Source of the DNA: Acidobacteriota bacterium
GTDB lineage: Bacteria; Acidobacteriota; Thermoanaerobaculia; Thermoanaerobaculales; Sulfomarinibacteraceae
DNA: 54,958 nucleotides
Direction of reading: 5' to 3'
Assembly: GCA_022340775.1 (NCBI GenBank)
Contig: JAJDNH010000086.1
Coordinates: 1 to 54,958, forward strand
The notes below the pieces were generated by a model. It saw only the letters and a list, made by a program, of their open reading frames with translations, was not told where the DNA came from and ran no database searches. How positions within the stretch are numbered: position 1 is the stretch's first letter; every line of letters starts with the position of its first letter. Positions 32,613 through 50,295 of the stretch are shown in pieces. A program made the position numbers and the translations under genes.

Positions 32613-34967
32613 ATGTCTCGCTCCGTCTTCATCCGCACTGTCATCATCCCCATCGGTATCGTCGTGATCCTGGGAGCGGGCCTGGCGGGGCTGTGGCTCC
32701 AATCCCGGCAGCACCACCTCCACCTCCTCAAGAGTGAGACAGCGGTGATGGCGGAGCAGACGGCGGCGAGGCTTGAGGATGCCGTGAAGATCCGCCTCGA
32801 GCTCGTCAACCAGATCCGCCGTGAGTGGCTGATCGCTCCTTACCCCGATCGCGCCGCTTTCGAACGCCGGTCGCTATCGCTCCAACGACAGTTCCCGGGC
32901 TATCAAGCAGTCAGCTGGGTGGACCCGAAAGGGGTCATCCGGTGGGTGGTGCCAAGAGAGCCGAACATCGCGGCGGAAGATTTCGACCTTCACAACCACC
33001 GCTTTGCCGCCGCCACATTCCGGCGTGCCGAGACCACCGGAGCCATCCAGGTGACACCCCCTCTTCCGCTCGTGCAGGGTGGGCTGGGAATCGCGAGCTA
33101 CTTCCCTATCCGCACGAACGGAAAGAACCTCGGCTACCTCAACGGCGTCTTCCGCATCCGTCCGATGGTGATGGCCTGTCTTCACGGCTCAATGCTCAAA
33201 GCCTACTCTGTTCGCCTCGCGATCGAAGGCCGACAGGGGTTCGCCAACGGAGTCCTCACGAGCCCAGGCTCCGACAAGCTCGCGGCCAGCGCGGCTTTCG
33301 GAATCTACGGCACGAATTGGGTGCTACAGGTGGCACCGAGCGCCGCGCAGGTGGCTCTTGCCCGTCCCGAGCTGGCATCAGCGCTGATTCTCCTCGGTCT
33401 GCCGCTGGCCGTCGGCGTTGCGTGGCTGTTTCGGACCGATCAGCTACGCCGGGTCGACCTCGAGCGTTCCGAGGAGCGTTACCGCCGCCTGGTCGAGGAC
33501 TCCGTCGATGTCATCTACGTCAGCACCCCGGGGGGGCGGCTCCTGGACATCAACCCGGCGGGCGTCGAGCTGTTTGCCGCAGCCTCTCGCGAGGAGCTGC
33601 TCTCGGTAGACGTCGGCCGCGACCTGTTCGTCAATCCGCGACAGCGCCGGGCGTTTGTCGAGCGTCTCCACCGCGATGGCTCTGTTCGCGACTACCGCCT
33701 GCTGCTGAAGACCCTGGAGGCGCGGGAGATCGTTTGCCGGGTCTCGGCGACCGTCGTGCGTGACACGAGCGGCGAAGTCGTCGCCCACCGCGGCATCCTG
33801 CACGACGAAACCGAGGCCACCCGCATGCAGGACCAGATCATCCGCATGCAGCGGATGGAGAGCATGAGCAACCTGGCCGGTGGAATCGCCCACGACTTCA
33901 ACAACATTCTCGCCGGCATCCTCGGGTACACGTCACTCCTGAAGATGAAACTGGATGACCCCGATCAGCGGCGACAGCTGGAGGTCATCGAGCGGAGCGT
34001 CGACAGTGCAACGGCCCTCACCTCACAGCTGCTCGCCTTCTCACGCGGCGATCTTCGCGAGCGGCGGCGCGTCGACCTCAACGAGGTCGTGCGGACGACC
34101 CTCTCCTTCCTGCGCAGGACCATCGATCCGTCGATTCTCATCGAACCTGACCTGGCTTCCGACCTGCCCCCGGTGATCGGGAACGGCGGACAGCTCCAGC
34201 AAGTAGTTTTGAACCTCTGTCTGAATGCCAGGGACGCCATGCCCGAGGGCGGGATCCTCGGCATTTCCACGAGCGCCGAGGTTGGGGCTTCAAACACCGG
34301 TTCATCTCCCGCCGACGAGGTGCCCTCAGGGTTCGTCCGTATCGCAGTATCCGATACCGGACATGGGATGGACGCGACCACACGCGAGCGGATCTTCGAG
34401 CCGTTCTTCTCGACCAAGGCCCGCAACAAGGGAACCGGCCTCGGCCTGGCCGTTGTTTACGGCATCGTCACCGGCCACGGAGGGACGATCGAGGTCGACA
34501 GCTCTCCGAATCTCGGCGCGACGTTCACGGTGGAGCTCCCGGCCACTACCGGAGCGCCCGAAACTGACGAGTCGGTGGAAGCGGCCGAGGGTGGCGGCTC
34601 GGGCACGATTCTGGTCGTGGATGACGATGCCACAGTCCGGTCGGCCCTGGTCGAGATCCTCGAGAGTCACGGCTACGCCTCGCTCCAGGCCGAGGACGGG
34701 CTGCAGGCGGTAGCTGTCTTCGAGCAGCACCGGCACGAGATCGATCTCGTCATCCTGGACATGACAATGCCCCACATGGGCGGACGCCAGACGTTCGACC
34801 GCCTGCGGGACATCTCGCCCGACGTCCGCGTGGTGCTCTCCACCGGCTACAGCCGCATGAAGGAAGGTCAGAAGCTACTCAAGGAAGGCGCGAGGGCGTT
34901 CCTGCAGAAGCCGTACCGCGTCAGCGAGCTCCTCAGCGTCATCCACGGCATCCTCGGAGACCAATAG
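32613..34967 (+). CDS. CHASE-PAS hybrid histidine kinase with receiver domain
   Basis: Predicted 784-residue membrane kinase. Helix 1 is about 8-30. The periplasmic CHASE domain (about 35-250) has [20 protein letters not shown], typical of that sensor. Helix 2 is about 250-270. A PAS domain follows (about 285-400, [19 protein letters not shown]), then the His-kinase core with His427 in [17 protein letters not shown] and ATPase motifs [17 protein letters not shown] and [12 protein letters not shown]. The C-terminal receiver has acceptor Asp716 ([12 protein letters not shown]). GGAGG at 32601-32605 supports ATG 32613. No partner regulator is adjacent. CHASE domains bind small ligands; this one's is unknown. 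Confidence 0.9.
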
Positions 34968-35153
34968 GAGGTCCGGGCGGAGAGGCCCGTTCGGCTGCAA
35001 CCCGCGATACGGGGCCATTTGCGCGTTTTTCGCTTGTCGTCCGCCTCCGACGTACCTGCAGGTACGACTGCGGCGTACTCCGGCGCGAGAAAACGCACAT
35101 CTGACGCCCGTCTCGCAGGTTTCGCTACGAACCGTCTCTCCGCCCGGACCTCC
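34967..35153. repeat. Long imperfect palindrome after the hybrid-kinase stop codon (family member 2)
   Basis: It starts on the last base of the TAG stop. The ends are inverted: 34967-34993 pairs with 35128-35153 over about 26 bp with only a few mismatches (CTCTCCGCCCGGACCTCC is fully shared). The exact middle is a perfect 14-bp palindrome GTACCTGCAGGTAC (35052-35065). The arms between also pair, for example GCGAAAAACGCGCA against GCGAGAAAACGCACA. It could fold into a single hairpin of about 90 bp. Confidence 0.75.
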
Positions 35154-35253
35154 GGAGCCTTTGAACGACGGTTGTTGTCCCGGGGTTGCAGCCTGATCGC
35201 CGGCCTGGCCACAACTGTTCCTGAACGGTGCAGCCTAGCAGCGACTGTCCCCG

Positions 35254-35789
35254 GGGATGGTCCCGCGGTGGGGCGGGGACGGAGCGGAAGGAGGCAACCG
35301 GCCATCCCGCCGCGGGCTGCAGGGGAGCCGAGCGCAGGAGGCTTGGCCCGAGGTCAGCCGAGGGTAAGCCTGCGAGCACGGTTCTCCCGCAACCGCAGCG
35401 GGTGCAGCCGCGAGCCGACGCGTCGCTCTGTTCCCTGCCCACCGGCCCGCGCAGCGGGCTGCGGGCAATGCCCGCACGGGACATGCGATCACGTGACGCC
35501 CATTGAAGCGGGATCGCGCAGGGCGTTCGCCTCGCGCCTCGCCGCCAGCGAGCGAGGAGTGCACTGACCTCGTGGTCGTGCCGACGAAGCGAGCACAGCG
35601 GCGTGGTGCGAGAGGGCGCTCCTGCGCGATCCCTCTTCTATCAAAAGGGGGGGCTCACTCACCTCATCAGCTGACTCAGGAGGCAGATCCGAGCGCAGCG
35701 AGCCGTCGGGGCCGGAAGGCCGGACCGAGGCTTGCCTCGAGGACGGACTGACGGACCCAGACGAGGCGGCCGCAGGCCGCGGATCTGCC
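35254..35789 (+). repeat. Two-copy structured element, copy A (candidate large non-coding RNA)
   Basis: This 536-bp GC-rich non-coding block has a second copy at 48712-49250. Shared parts in order: GGGATGGTC paired with GGCCATCCC (35254-35262/35300-35308), interlocked with CCCGCGGTGG paired to CCGCCGCGGG (35262-35271/35307-35316), a pseudoknot-like order; the GGAGGCTT arm (35337-35373); hairpin TGCGGGC-AAT-GCCCGCA (35460-35476); GCGATC/GATCGC; a CTCGC/GCGAG hairpin; GACC-TCGT-GGTC; CCCTC/GGGGG; and a 108-nt 3' domain closed by GGCAGATCCG/CGGATCTGCC (35682-35691/35780-35789) containing GCGGCC-GCA-GGCCGC. Non-triplet indels between copies argue against coding. The right end is 66 bp from the uvrB stop. 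Bases 35154-35253 and 35790-35854 show nothing clear. Confidence 0.75.
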
Positions 35790-35854: not shown

Positions 35855-37864
35855 TTACTTGTAGATCTGGCGGCTGCGCAGGTCCCTGACGCGGTCTCGG
35901 AGGGTGGCCGCCTCCTCGAACTCGAGGCGTTTGGCTGCGTCCCGCATGCGGCGCTCGAGCTCGGCGACCAGCTTGTACAGCGAGGCCTCGTCCTCCGGAA
36001 CCTCTCCCTCGGGCGGCTCGGCGGCCAGGCGCGGCCGCCCGCCCGGCTCAAGGTAGTCGAGGTTCGACATGACAACCAGCGGGTTGGCGACGTCCTTCAC
36101 GATGGTCCGGGGCTCGATCCCGTGCTCGGCGTTGAAGGCCGCCTGCGTTTCCCGGCGGCGCCCGGTCTCCTCGAGCGCGCGCTCCATGGAGCCGGTGATA
36201 CGGTCCGCATACAGAACCGCGCGCCCGTCGACGTTGCGAGCGGCGCGACCGACGGTCTGGATCAGCGACGTATCGGAGCGCAGGAACCCTTCCTGGTCAG
36301 CGTCGAGGATGGCGACCAGTGCGACCTCGGGCAGGTCAAGGCCCTCGCGCAGGAGGTTGATCCCGACCAACACGTCGAACTCGCCACGCCTGAGGTCGGC
36401 GAGAATCGCGGTCCGTTCCAGCGCGTCGATCTCGGAGTGGAGGTAACGGACACGGATCCCGAGCTCAGCCATGTAGGCAGTCAGGTCCTCGGCCATCCTC
36501 TTGGTCAGCGTGGTCACCAGCACCCGCTCGCCGAGCTCCACCACGCCCCGCACCTCGCCGATCAGGTCGTCCACCTGCCCCTCGGCAGGCCTCACCTCGA
36601 CCGCCGGATCCAGAAGGCCGGTCGGCCTGATCAGCTGCTCCACCACCTCACCCTCGCTGTGCTCCAGCTCGTAGGGTCCCGGGGTGGCCGAGACGAAGAC
36701 GACCTGGTTCAGGCGGCCCTCGAACTCCTCGAAGGTCAGAGGGCGGTTGTCGAGCGCGGAAGGCAGACGAAACCCGTGGTCGACCAAGGTCTGCTTGCGT
36801 GAGCGGTCGCCGTGGAACATGCCTCGCACCTGCGGCACCGTCACGTGTGACTCGTCGATGATGCACAGAAAGTCACGCGGAAAGTAATCGAGCAGCGTCG
36901 GCGGCGGCTCCCCCGCGGCGCGCCCGGTCAGGTGCCGGGAGTAATTCTCAATGCCCTGACAGTAGCCCAGCTCGGTGAGCATCTCGAGGTCGAACTGGGT
37001 GCGTTGCCCGAGACGCTGGGCCTCAAGCAGCTTGCCGACTGTGTTGAGCTCTCCAAGCCGCAGGTCGAGCTCTTCCCTGATGCCGCCGATCGCCGCCATC
37101 AGCTGCTCGCGCGGCGTCACGTAATGGGTACGCGGGTAGACCGGCAGACGCTGGGCGGACTCGAGGACACTACCGCGCACCGGGTCAATGCGCTGGATCG
37201 ACTCGACCTCGTCGCCCCAGAACGAGACCCGCAGTGCGGTGTCGTCGTACGGCGGGTAGATCTCGAGCGTGTCCCCACGGAGACGGAAGCTGCCCGGCGC
37301 GAGATCGAGGCTGGTCCGCTGGTACTGCATCTTGGCGAGCTGCCTCAAGATCTCGTCCAGGGCCTGCTCCTCACCGACCTCGAACAGCTGCATCATGCCG
37401 TAGTACGCCTCCGGCGAGCCCAGACCGTAGATGCAGCTCACCGAGGCGACGATGATGACATCGCGCCGTTCGAACAGCGATCGGGTCGCCGACAGCCGCA
37501 GGCGGTCGATCTCCTCGTTGATGCTGGTCTCCTTCTCGATGTAGGTGTCGGTCGTCGGCACGTAGGCCTCGGGCTGGTAGTAGTCGTAATAGGACACAAA
37601 GTACTCGACAGCGTTGGACGGGAAGAACGCCTTGAACTCCTGGTACAGCTGGGCGGCCAGCGTCTTGTTATGCGACAGGATGAGCGTCGGCCGCCCGGTG
37701 GACTCGATGACCTTGGCCATTGTGAAAGTCTTGCCGGAGCCGGTCACCCCGAGCAGAGTCTGGCAGGCCAAGCCTTCCTCGAGGCCGCCCACCAGGCGAG
37801 CGATGGCACGCTCCTGATCCCCAGCCGGGCTGAACGGCGCCTCCAGCGCAAAGCTGGGACTCAC
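35855..37864 (-). CDS. uvrB: Excinuclease ABC subunit B (UvrB)
   Basis: Predicted 669-residue damage-verifying helicase of nucleotide excision repair; it is loaded by UvrA and then recruits UvrC. Walker [10 protein letters not shown] is near residue 40, the DNA-threading beta-hairpin [12 protein letters not shown] is near 92-103, the helicase box is CIIDESHVT, motif VI follows QTVGRAARN, and the C-terminal UVR motif is [22 protein letters not shown] in part (about 630-660). Length is standard. The GTG start at 37864 overlaps the stop of the upstream small membrane protein gene by 4 bp, so they are one operon. Confidence 0.97.
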
Positions 37865-48472: not shown

Positions 48473-48711
48473 GCCGCTCGGGCCGCCTCCTCCAAGGTTG
48501 AGGCCGATACTCTCACCGCCAAGGGCCGAGATTGCCCCCCTTGACGTTTCTCGCCAGCGCCAAGCCCTCGTGAACGCTCTTCAGAGAAACATCAAGGACC
48601 GCACGTCCGTTTGAACGGACCGTTCTCCGGAGCGCGCTCCGGCCTCGTTCTACGGGTGGGCGGGGGACTCCGTCACTCCGTCACCGGGTGGGCGGACGGG
48701 CGATTCCCCGA

Positions 48712-49250
48712 GGGATGGTCCCGCGGCGGGGCGGGAACGGGGCGGAAGGAGGCGAGCGACCATCCCGCCGCGGGCGGCGGGGGGACCGGGCACAGGAGGC
48801 TTGGCCCGAGCTCCGGTGAGGGTAAGCCTCCGAGCACGGTCTCCCCGGCGTCCTCGGCGGGTGCAGCCGCGAGCCGACACACCGGTCCGTCCCCGTCCCG
48901 CCGGCCCGCGCAGCCGGCTGCGGGCTACGCCCGCACGGGACATGCGATCGCGCTGGGCCTACCCAAGCAGGATCGCGCAGGGCGTTCTCCTCGCGCCTCG
49001 CCGCCAGCGAGCGAGGAGTCGCTGACCTCGTGGTCGCGACGACGAAGCGAACGCAGCGGCGTGGTGCGAGAGGGCGCTCCTGCTCGATCCCTCTTCTATC
49101 AAAAAGGGAGGGGGCTCACTCACCTCTCAGAGCACCCAGGAGGCAGATCCGAGCGAAGCGAGCCCTCGGGGCGGGAAGACCGGATCGAGGTCCTCCTCGA
49201 GACCGGGTTTCCCGATCCCGAGGGGCGCGGCCGCAGGCCGCGGATCTGCC
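48712..49250 (+). repeat. Two-copy structured element, copy B (candidate large non-coding RNA)
   Basis: This 539-bp counterpart of the block at 35254 has long runs of near identity, for example about 50 bp around GTGGTGCGAGAGGGCGCTCC with one mismatch. Paired parts: GGGATGGTC/GACCATCCC (48712-48720/48758-48766), CCCGCGGCGG/CCGCCGCGGG (48720-48729/48765-48774), GGAGGCTT/AAGCCTCC (48795-48802/48824-48831, perfect), TGCGGGC-TAC-GCCCGCA (48919-48935), CCCTC/GAGGG (49089/49108), and the 3' domain GGCAGATCCG/CGGATCTGCC (49142-49151/49241-49250) enclosing a long hairpin CCTCGGG/CCCGAGG and GCGGCC-GCA-GGCCGC. The right end is 11 bp from the stop of the leftward membrane-protein gene. Confidence 0.75.
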
Positions 49251-49260
49251 GGAGCCCCGA

Positions 49261-50295
49261 TCAGGTTAGATCGGAGCCGGTACCCGGGAGCGGATTGCTC
49301 GGGATGATGAACGGATCCGAGTCGTCCGGCTCCGGGACCACCGGCTCGGGGCGTTCCGGCTCGGGGCGCTCAATGACCTCCGGCTTCTCGTCGACCTCCG
49401 GTTCTTCGGCCACCACCAACTCTTCATCGGACTCGGGCTGGGTGAGCAGGCCGCTGGTCGGCGCGAACGACAGGAACAGCGCCACGATGCAGTAGGCCCG
49501 CAAGAGCCCCAGTACGAGGCCAGTCACGAGGCCGAGGAAGGTGCCGGCTAAAACTCGGAGATCGAAGCCCAGCATCAGCGGCGCGAGCACCAGCAGCTTC
49601 ACAGGAACGCCCCACGCGAGCACACACCCGAGCGAGCGCAGCGGGTCCCGCAGGGTGCCTGCCAACCCCTGCAGCCACGCCAACGCGGAAGAGCGCCGCT
49701 GCGGATCCGCGAGCACCCAGGCACCGCGCAACGTCGCCGCCCAGACGATCCACACCACGAGCCCGCCAAGCGCCAGAGCGGCCAGCTGGAGATTGACCAT
49801 CCGCGTCTCGGCCAGGTGCGTGCGCGCCGCCCTCGCCATCAGCTGGAACGGCGAGCACACCACCGCCACCAGAGCCACCGTGCCTGCGATCGCGGTCAGC
49901 GCCAGCCGCGCGTAGCGCCACCACGCGAGGACACCGAGGCCGACCACCTCGCCGAGGCGTACCGGCCGCCCGGAGGACCATGCGATCCAGCCGGTGGTGC
50001 CGGCATGCCACATCACACCCCAGGCCCACAGGACCGCCAGAAAGGAGACGACTCCGACTCCCAGCCACGGGCCGATCCGGGATAGCCCCCACATCAGAAT
50101 CAGGCCGACGTCTCCCGGCGCAGCTCCGGTCATGGGCACAGGACCCAGCATCGACCCCAGGCTGCGCCTGACGGCGAGAACCAATGGAGCACCGAGCACC
50201 AACGGAACCAGCCAGACCGCCGCCACCAGCCGCCACATCTCGATCGCCTTCTTCGCGCCGAAGCGCACCGACACCGTGTGATTCTCTTTGCTCAT
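49261..50295 (-). CDS. Polytopic membrane protein with acidic C-terminal tail, unknown function
   Basis: Predicted 344 residues. About six to seven hydrophobic helices occupy residues 20-290 (for example VGVVSFLAVLWAWGVMW and LALGGLVVWIVWAATL). A highly charged Glu/Pro-rich tail follows (EEPEVDEKPEVIERPEPERP region, about 295-330). I recognise no catalytic motif. Start ATG 50295 lies 1 bp from the stop of the secreted M1 peptidase, so the two are co-transcribed and this protein may assist it or share its compartment. Its stop lies next to structured element copy B. Confidence 0.75.
   Translation of the reverse strand: MSKENHTVSVRFGAKKAIEMWRLVAAVWLVPLVLGAPLVLAVRRSLGSMLGPVPMTGAAPGDVGLILMWGLSRIGPWLGVGVVSFLAVLWAWGVMWHAGTTGWIAWSSGRPVRLGEVVGLGVLAWWRYARLALTAIAGTVALVAVVCSPFQLMARAARTHLAETRMVNLQLAALALGGLVVWIVWAATLRGAWVLADPQRRSSALAWLQGLAGTLRDPLRSLGCVLAWGVPVKLLVLAPLMLGFDLRVLAGTFLGLVTGLVLGLLRAYCIVALFLSFAPTSGLLTQPESDEELVVAEEPEVDEKPEVIERPEPERPEPVVPEPDDSDPFIIPSNPLPGTGSDLT

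Follow-up and report, generated by a model that had tools for sequence, protein, structure and literature searches.

A dispersed, non-coding repeat of ~550 nt in one family of Acidobacteriota, with a preferred folding strand in two of its three modules

The window, a stretch of 54,958 nucleotides that forms contig 231 of a Thermoanaerobaculia MAG (251 contigs, 3.8 Mb), holds two copies of a ~550-nt element on its forward strand. Copy A (35246..35789, +), whose ends were placed from alignments and which stops at a sharp 3' end (...GCGGATCTGCC), consists of the modules M1, M2 and M3 in that order. Copy B (48705..49264, +) carries the same modules at 48716-48943, 48962-49098 and 49140-49252. The two copies share their orientation and are 84% identical across ~560 bases. 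Copy A is flanked by uvrB (35855-37864, −) and by a hybrid sensor histidine kinase gene (32613-34967, +), both converging on it, and copy B adjoins a 344-aa ORF (49261-50295, −) that has no NCBIfam or Pfam match. The window also contains a member of a second dispersed inverted-repeat family (34968-35153, +), whose terminal arms, GGAGGTCCGGGCGGAGAG, are complementary at 18/18 positions. This second family numbers ~20 near-full copies plus many fragments genome-wide, often next to the ~550-nt element, and the member in the window is more stable when folded from the opposite strand (−122 vs −108 kcal/mol).

Across the MAG we found at least 19 near-full copies of the ~550-nt element and ~30 partial ones, with a mean pairwise identity of 83%. 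Many contigs break off inside copies, so the real copy number is probably above 19. The ends of copies are sharp and their flanking sequences are unrelated to one another, while neighbouring elements can stand head-to-tail with a spacer of ~10 nt. We looked for three-base periodicity in the changes among copies and found none, and no frame is open across all copies; a coding sequence was rejected on these grounds. The element is non-coding, dispersed and multi-copy, as a MITE would be.

To describe its fold, we oriented and aligned 21 copies and then derived consensus stems from Watson-Crick pairs only, retaining a stem only when it was predicted on both strands, so that the procedure cannot favour a strand. 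On the rightward strand, the predicted fold begins with a four-way junction (M1) and continues with two long hairpins (M2 and M3); the modules measure 108-223 nt. In copy A, the M1 junction (35260..35482, +) appears in the minimum-free-energy (MFE) fold, with a z of −7.6, and in the Watson-Crick-only fold common to both strands. Both folds contain its closing stem (35260-65/35477-82, +), next to which a long arm (35266-35444, +) rises through the arm stem 35266-35287/35423-35444 to a tip hairpin (35330..35379, +). The tip has conserved CTTGGCCCGA...AGGGTAAG and a compensating stem, as seen in the family-wide alignment, pair counts and a motif scan. Two side hairpins (35445..35459 and 35460..35476, both +), predicted by the consensus and MFE folds alike, complete the junction. 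M2 is a long hairpin, GGATCGCGCAGG...CCTGCGCGATCC (35511..35632, +), with a conserved tip, GACCTCGTGGTC, and covariation over 44 sequences. M3 is the terminal hairpin, GGCAGATCC...GGATCTGCC (35682..35789, +), which occurs outside full copies too. The tip stem of copy A (GAGCCG/CGGTTC) presumably resembles group II intron domain V; that candidate was dropped, since these letters are not conserved in other copies.

An earlier note on this DNA had derived a preferred rightward strand from three pairs that differ between copies A and B in a way tolerated only by a rightward RNA. The letters are as it claimed: T35261/G35301, T35269/G35309 and CCCTC (35631-35635) ahead of a G run in copy A, and T/A, C/G and GAGGG in copy B. 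Its pairings were mis-assigned in two cases, as the MFE fold joins T35261 to A35481 and T35269 to A35441; the latter pair is C-G in copy B, an ordinary two-sided compensatory change. Over 18 copies, the first of the local stems that it had drawn (35256-61 with 35301-06) comprises 65 Watson-Crick, 22 A-C, 19 G-U and 2 other cells. Its position 35258/35304 is C.A in 14/18 copies, and 35261/35301 is T.G in 17/18, so the latter is not a recent wobble of copy A. The second local stem (35262-69 with 35309-16; 18 copies) comprises 120 Watson-Crick, 19 G-U, 2 A-C and 3 other cells. Both stems compete for one left strand with the long-range M1 stem (35260-65/35477-82 plus 35266-87/35423-44), which has 414 Watson-Crick, 31 G-U, 3 A-C and 20 other cells and is part of the MFE fold of copy A. 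We rejected the local stems in favour of this better-supported one, in which 88% of cells are Watson-Crick against 60% and 83% in stems 1 and 2. The third pairing forms a short hairpin (35631..35653, +) that overlaps the foot of M2 and is not conserved: opposite T35634, 11 of the 19 aligned copies have A and 7 have T, and copy A alone has G.

We then searched 16 genera of the order with covariance models of the M1 core and M2 and detected the element in 6, this genus and five others, all of one family. Wherever one contig holds both modules, M1 lies ahead of M2 in a shared orientation. The genus G009 gave more than 40 M2 matches; just upstream of many G009 copies lies an 84-nt direct repeat, 85% alike (L121, reverse strand, 8-91 and 146-229). 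A single relative from another genus, G004, shares the four-way-junction plan of M1 described here. GNRA loops were seen in G004 alone and were dropped as evidence for an RNA. Across genera, 20/41 pairs of the M1 core and 23/43 pairs of M2 (44 sequences) have changed on both sides, and the covariation score of each module was matched by 0/500 relatedness-blind shuffles; M1 and M2 thus show the excess of compensatory changes expected of a structured RNA. The alignments were fitted to the model and so lean towards structure; in slid controls the score dropped to less than a quarter (M1) or less than a third (M2). Loop motifs are also conserved across genera, strand-specifically. The M1 tip pattern, scanned against 84,980 genomes, matched only Acidobacteriota (Thermoanaerobaculia) MAGs and no viral contigs, and the element DNA matched no plasmid. 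Against Rfam, the window had no match that reached the gathering score, the element had none with an E value under 0.7 and its relatives had none under 1, and a known family (HEARO, OLE, GOLLD, ROOL or group I/II introns) was rejected for want of a covariance-model match.

Does the element have a preferred strand? The earlier note had looked to a larger alignment for more G-U than A-C exceptions. Phylogeny-aware events at paired sites in this genome gave 72 G-U vs 56 A-C in total (p 0.19), and an independent set of 28 copies from G009 gave 34:25 (p 0.30). By module, the G-U:A-C events in this genome were 53:28 in M1 (p 0.007, one of six module tests), 7:14 in M2 and 12:14 in M3. The expected asymmetry therefore fails overall, except perhaps within M1, and we rejected copy-to-copy changes as a strand signal because the bias is confined to M1 of this genome. 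Unpaired M1 columns showed no asymmetry between C>T (1.5 per site) and G>A (1.65 per site), which makes a mutational cause of the M1 bias unlikely, and mutational strand asymmetry was rejected on this basis.

Fixed oppositions, that is, consensus non-Watson-Crick positions inside the strand-neutral stems, were more informative. We classed them as G-U or purine-purine, including tandem G-A/A-G, versus A-C or pyrimidine-pyrimidine. In this genome 17 favoured the rightward strand vs 4 (p 0.007), in G009 the counts were 29 vs 2 (p 5e-7), and G004, G006, G013 and G011 pointed in the same direction; many of these sites are homologous between genera, so the counts are not all independent. One M2 wobble stays U-G in 43/44 sequences, and two further M2 sites flip between U-G and G-U from genus to genus; the leftward strand would read such sites as A-C. 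Folding energies agreed, with the rightward strand lower for M1 in 18/18, M2 in 19/19 and M3 in 17/18 copies here, and for M1 in 17/20, M2 in 24/24 and M3 in 11/24 copies of G009. For M1 of copy A, the leftward z was only −4.5. M1 and M2 thus have a real strand preference, whereas that of M3 is doubtful. The conclusion of the earlier note thus stands on fixed oppositions and folding energies, while its three-pair argument does not. DNA folding parameters preferred the rightward strand as RNA parameters did, so that an RNA and a single DNA strand are indistinguishable here.

Individual copies behave differently from the lineage as a whole. Variants confined to one copy divide evenly at paired sites (33 G-U, 32 A-C), indicating that pairing is not maintained within single copies, whereas the compensatory and wobble-biased differences between genera indicate that it is maintained in the propagating lineage. 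Shared variants, those present in at least two copies, preserve pairing more often than singletons do in this genome (30/67 vs 39/130, p 0.04), and the corresponding counts in G009 were 28/71 vs 33/125 (p 0.08). We also observed internal-deletion derivatives that retain both ends, as MITEs can, with the 5' end fused straight to the 3' end (L200, L203 and L204).

Single copies in which pairing is not maintained, together with a propagating lineage in which it is, point to a mobile, non-autonomous element more readily than to RNAs that are each useful at their own locus. On balance we favour the view that this is a non-autonomous mobile repeat of ~550 nt, non-coding and lineage-specific, in whose propagation the folded rightward strand plays a part and whose inserted copies decay. 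The folded strand, as RNA or single-stranded DNA, would be recognised by a putative trans-acting machinery during copying. Structure would then be maintained in the propagating lineage, giving rise to the compensatory changes and to the G-U and G-A oppositions fixed between genera, and each inserted copy would decay free of selection. Several observations weigh against this reading: near-neutral decay of copies could also follow ordinary duplication, M3 of G009 is strand-neutral, no direct target-site duplication was seen in the flanks of copies, and no transposase or reverse transcriptase is linked to the element. Nor does the element as a whole have the terminal inverted repeats of a MITE, its 5' end (CTGTCCCCAGG) and 3' end (GGATCTGCC) not being mutually inverted; M3 alone carries inverted ends. 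At seven different loci (L004, L006, L008, L011, L013, L017 and L198) the 3' flank past the terminal GGATCTGCC resembles GTGGCGGGGAYCATCC, which could be either a short extension or a preferred target.

The copies might instead be dispersed, host-useful structured RNAs of the 3' UTR or sRNA type, each transcribed rightward and with a local role, for instance at mRNA ends where two genes converge. Such a role would suit the strong fold, the loop motifs shared across genera and the position of copies in this genome: with genes called by a simple GC3 heuristic, the gene past the 3' end is convergent in 15/19 cases, usually ending within ~150 nt, and the upstream gene is co-directional in 11/12 copies where it was resolved. 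However, G009 and other relatives do not retain the convergent placement, which would also be expected from selection against insertion near promoters. The even split of singletons and the many fragments and deletion derivatives also speak against local usefulness, and we regard this explanation as rather unlikely.

A single-stranded-DNA element like those of REP/RAYT or IS200/IS605, with a Y1 (HUH) transposase working in trans on the hairpins of one DNA strand, would account for the rightward preference under DNA parameters. The genome does encode REP-associated tyrosine transposases, at L054:597-1607 (−) and L055:1468-2469 (+), both above the NF047646 cut-off, and each of the family's ten genera has Y1 matches. 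Y1 genes are equally common in genomes that lack the element, however, and we found no element module near the REP-associated transposase loci checked. The size and four-way junction of the element are also unlike REPs of 20-40 bp (PMC3733652), and we consider this alternative improbable. Judged from ORF translations, inverted copies of a sequence that does not resemble the element appear to flank the L055 transposase gene. Of the six carrier genomes, four lack reverse transcriptases, and no module lies near the reverse transcriptase of this genome; linkage to a Y1 transposase or a reverse transcriptase was rejected accordingly. Finally, strand-neutral palindromic DNA repeats, that is, ordinary MITEs in which the wobble pairs of the earlier note arose by chance, would agree with the lack of an overall G-U bias among copies and with the neutral M3 of G009, but are very unlikely given that fixed oppositions and folding energies single out one strand for M1 and M2 in each of two genera and that loop motifs are conserved strand-specifically.

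A more specific version of the mobile repeat that we favour would place it in an undescribed class, a gene-less bacterial analogue of SINEs that propagates via a large folded rightward RNA (~550 nt, including a four-way junction), its master copies keeping the fold and its inserted copies decaying; we put this forward as a long shot. If the mobile reading is correct, a large and strand-specific folded element has spread repeatedly within several genera of uncultured Acidobacteriota, with its fold kept by compensatory change. It would then become testable whether selection on the folded single strand of propagating copies alone can maintain bacterial repeats. The analysis also illustrates that fixed G-U and G-A oppositions can reveal the strand where copy-to-copy changes are uninformative.

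Among known systems, bacterial MITE-like repeats have transcripts predicted as long stem-loops, and the effect of ERIC on transcripts depends on orientation (PMC2229807). Like ERIC/IRU, Correia/NEMIS, RUP and YPAL, the element is non-coding, dispersed and intergenic with predicted long stem-loops; unlike them, it measures ~550 nt rather than under 200-300, has three modules with a four-way junction, lacks whole-element terminal inverted repeats and visible target-site duplications, and is confined to one Acidobacteriota family. With REP/BIME/REPIN systems it shares palindromic modules, mosaics between genes and the presence of RAYTs in the genome. It differs from REPIN-RAYT arrangements in its modules of 108-223 nt, none of them at RAYT loci, where REPs are palindromes of 20-40 bp (PMC3733652) flanking the RAYT gene. 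The size class of hundreds of nucleotides and the intricate fold recall OLE, GOLLD, ROOL and HEARO, from which the lack of an Rfam match sets the element apart. HEARO is also repeated. A further parallel is offered by the bacterial stem-loop sequence families, repeated intergenic sequences that share one predicted secondary structure and possibly act at the RNA level (PMC2267715). The element is likewise an intergenic repeat with one predicted fold, to which the present analysis adds tests of strand and of covariation across genera.
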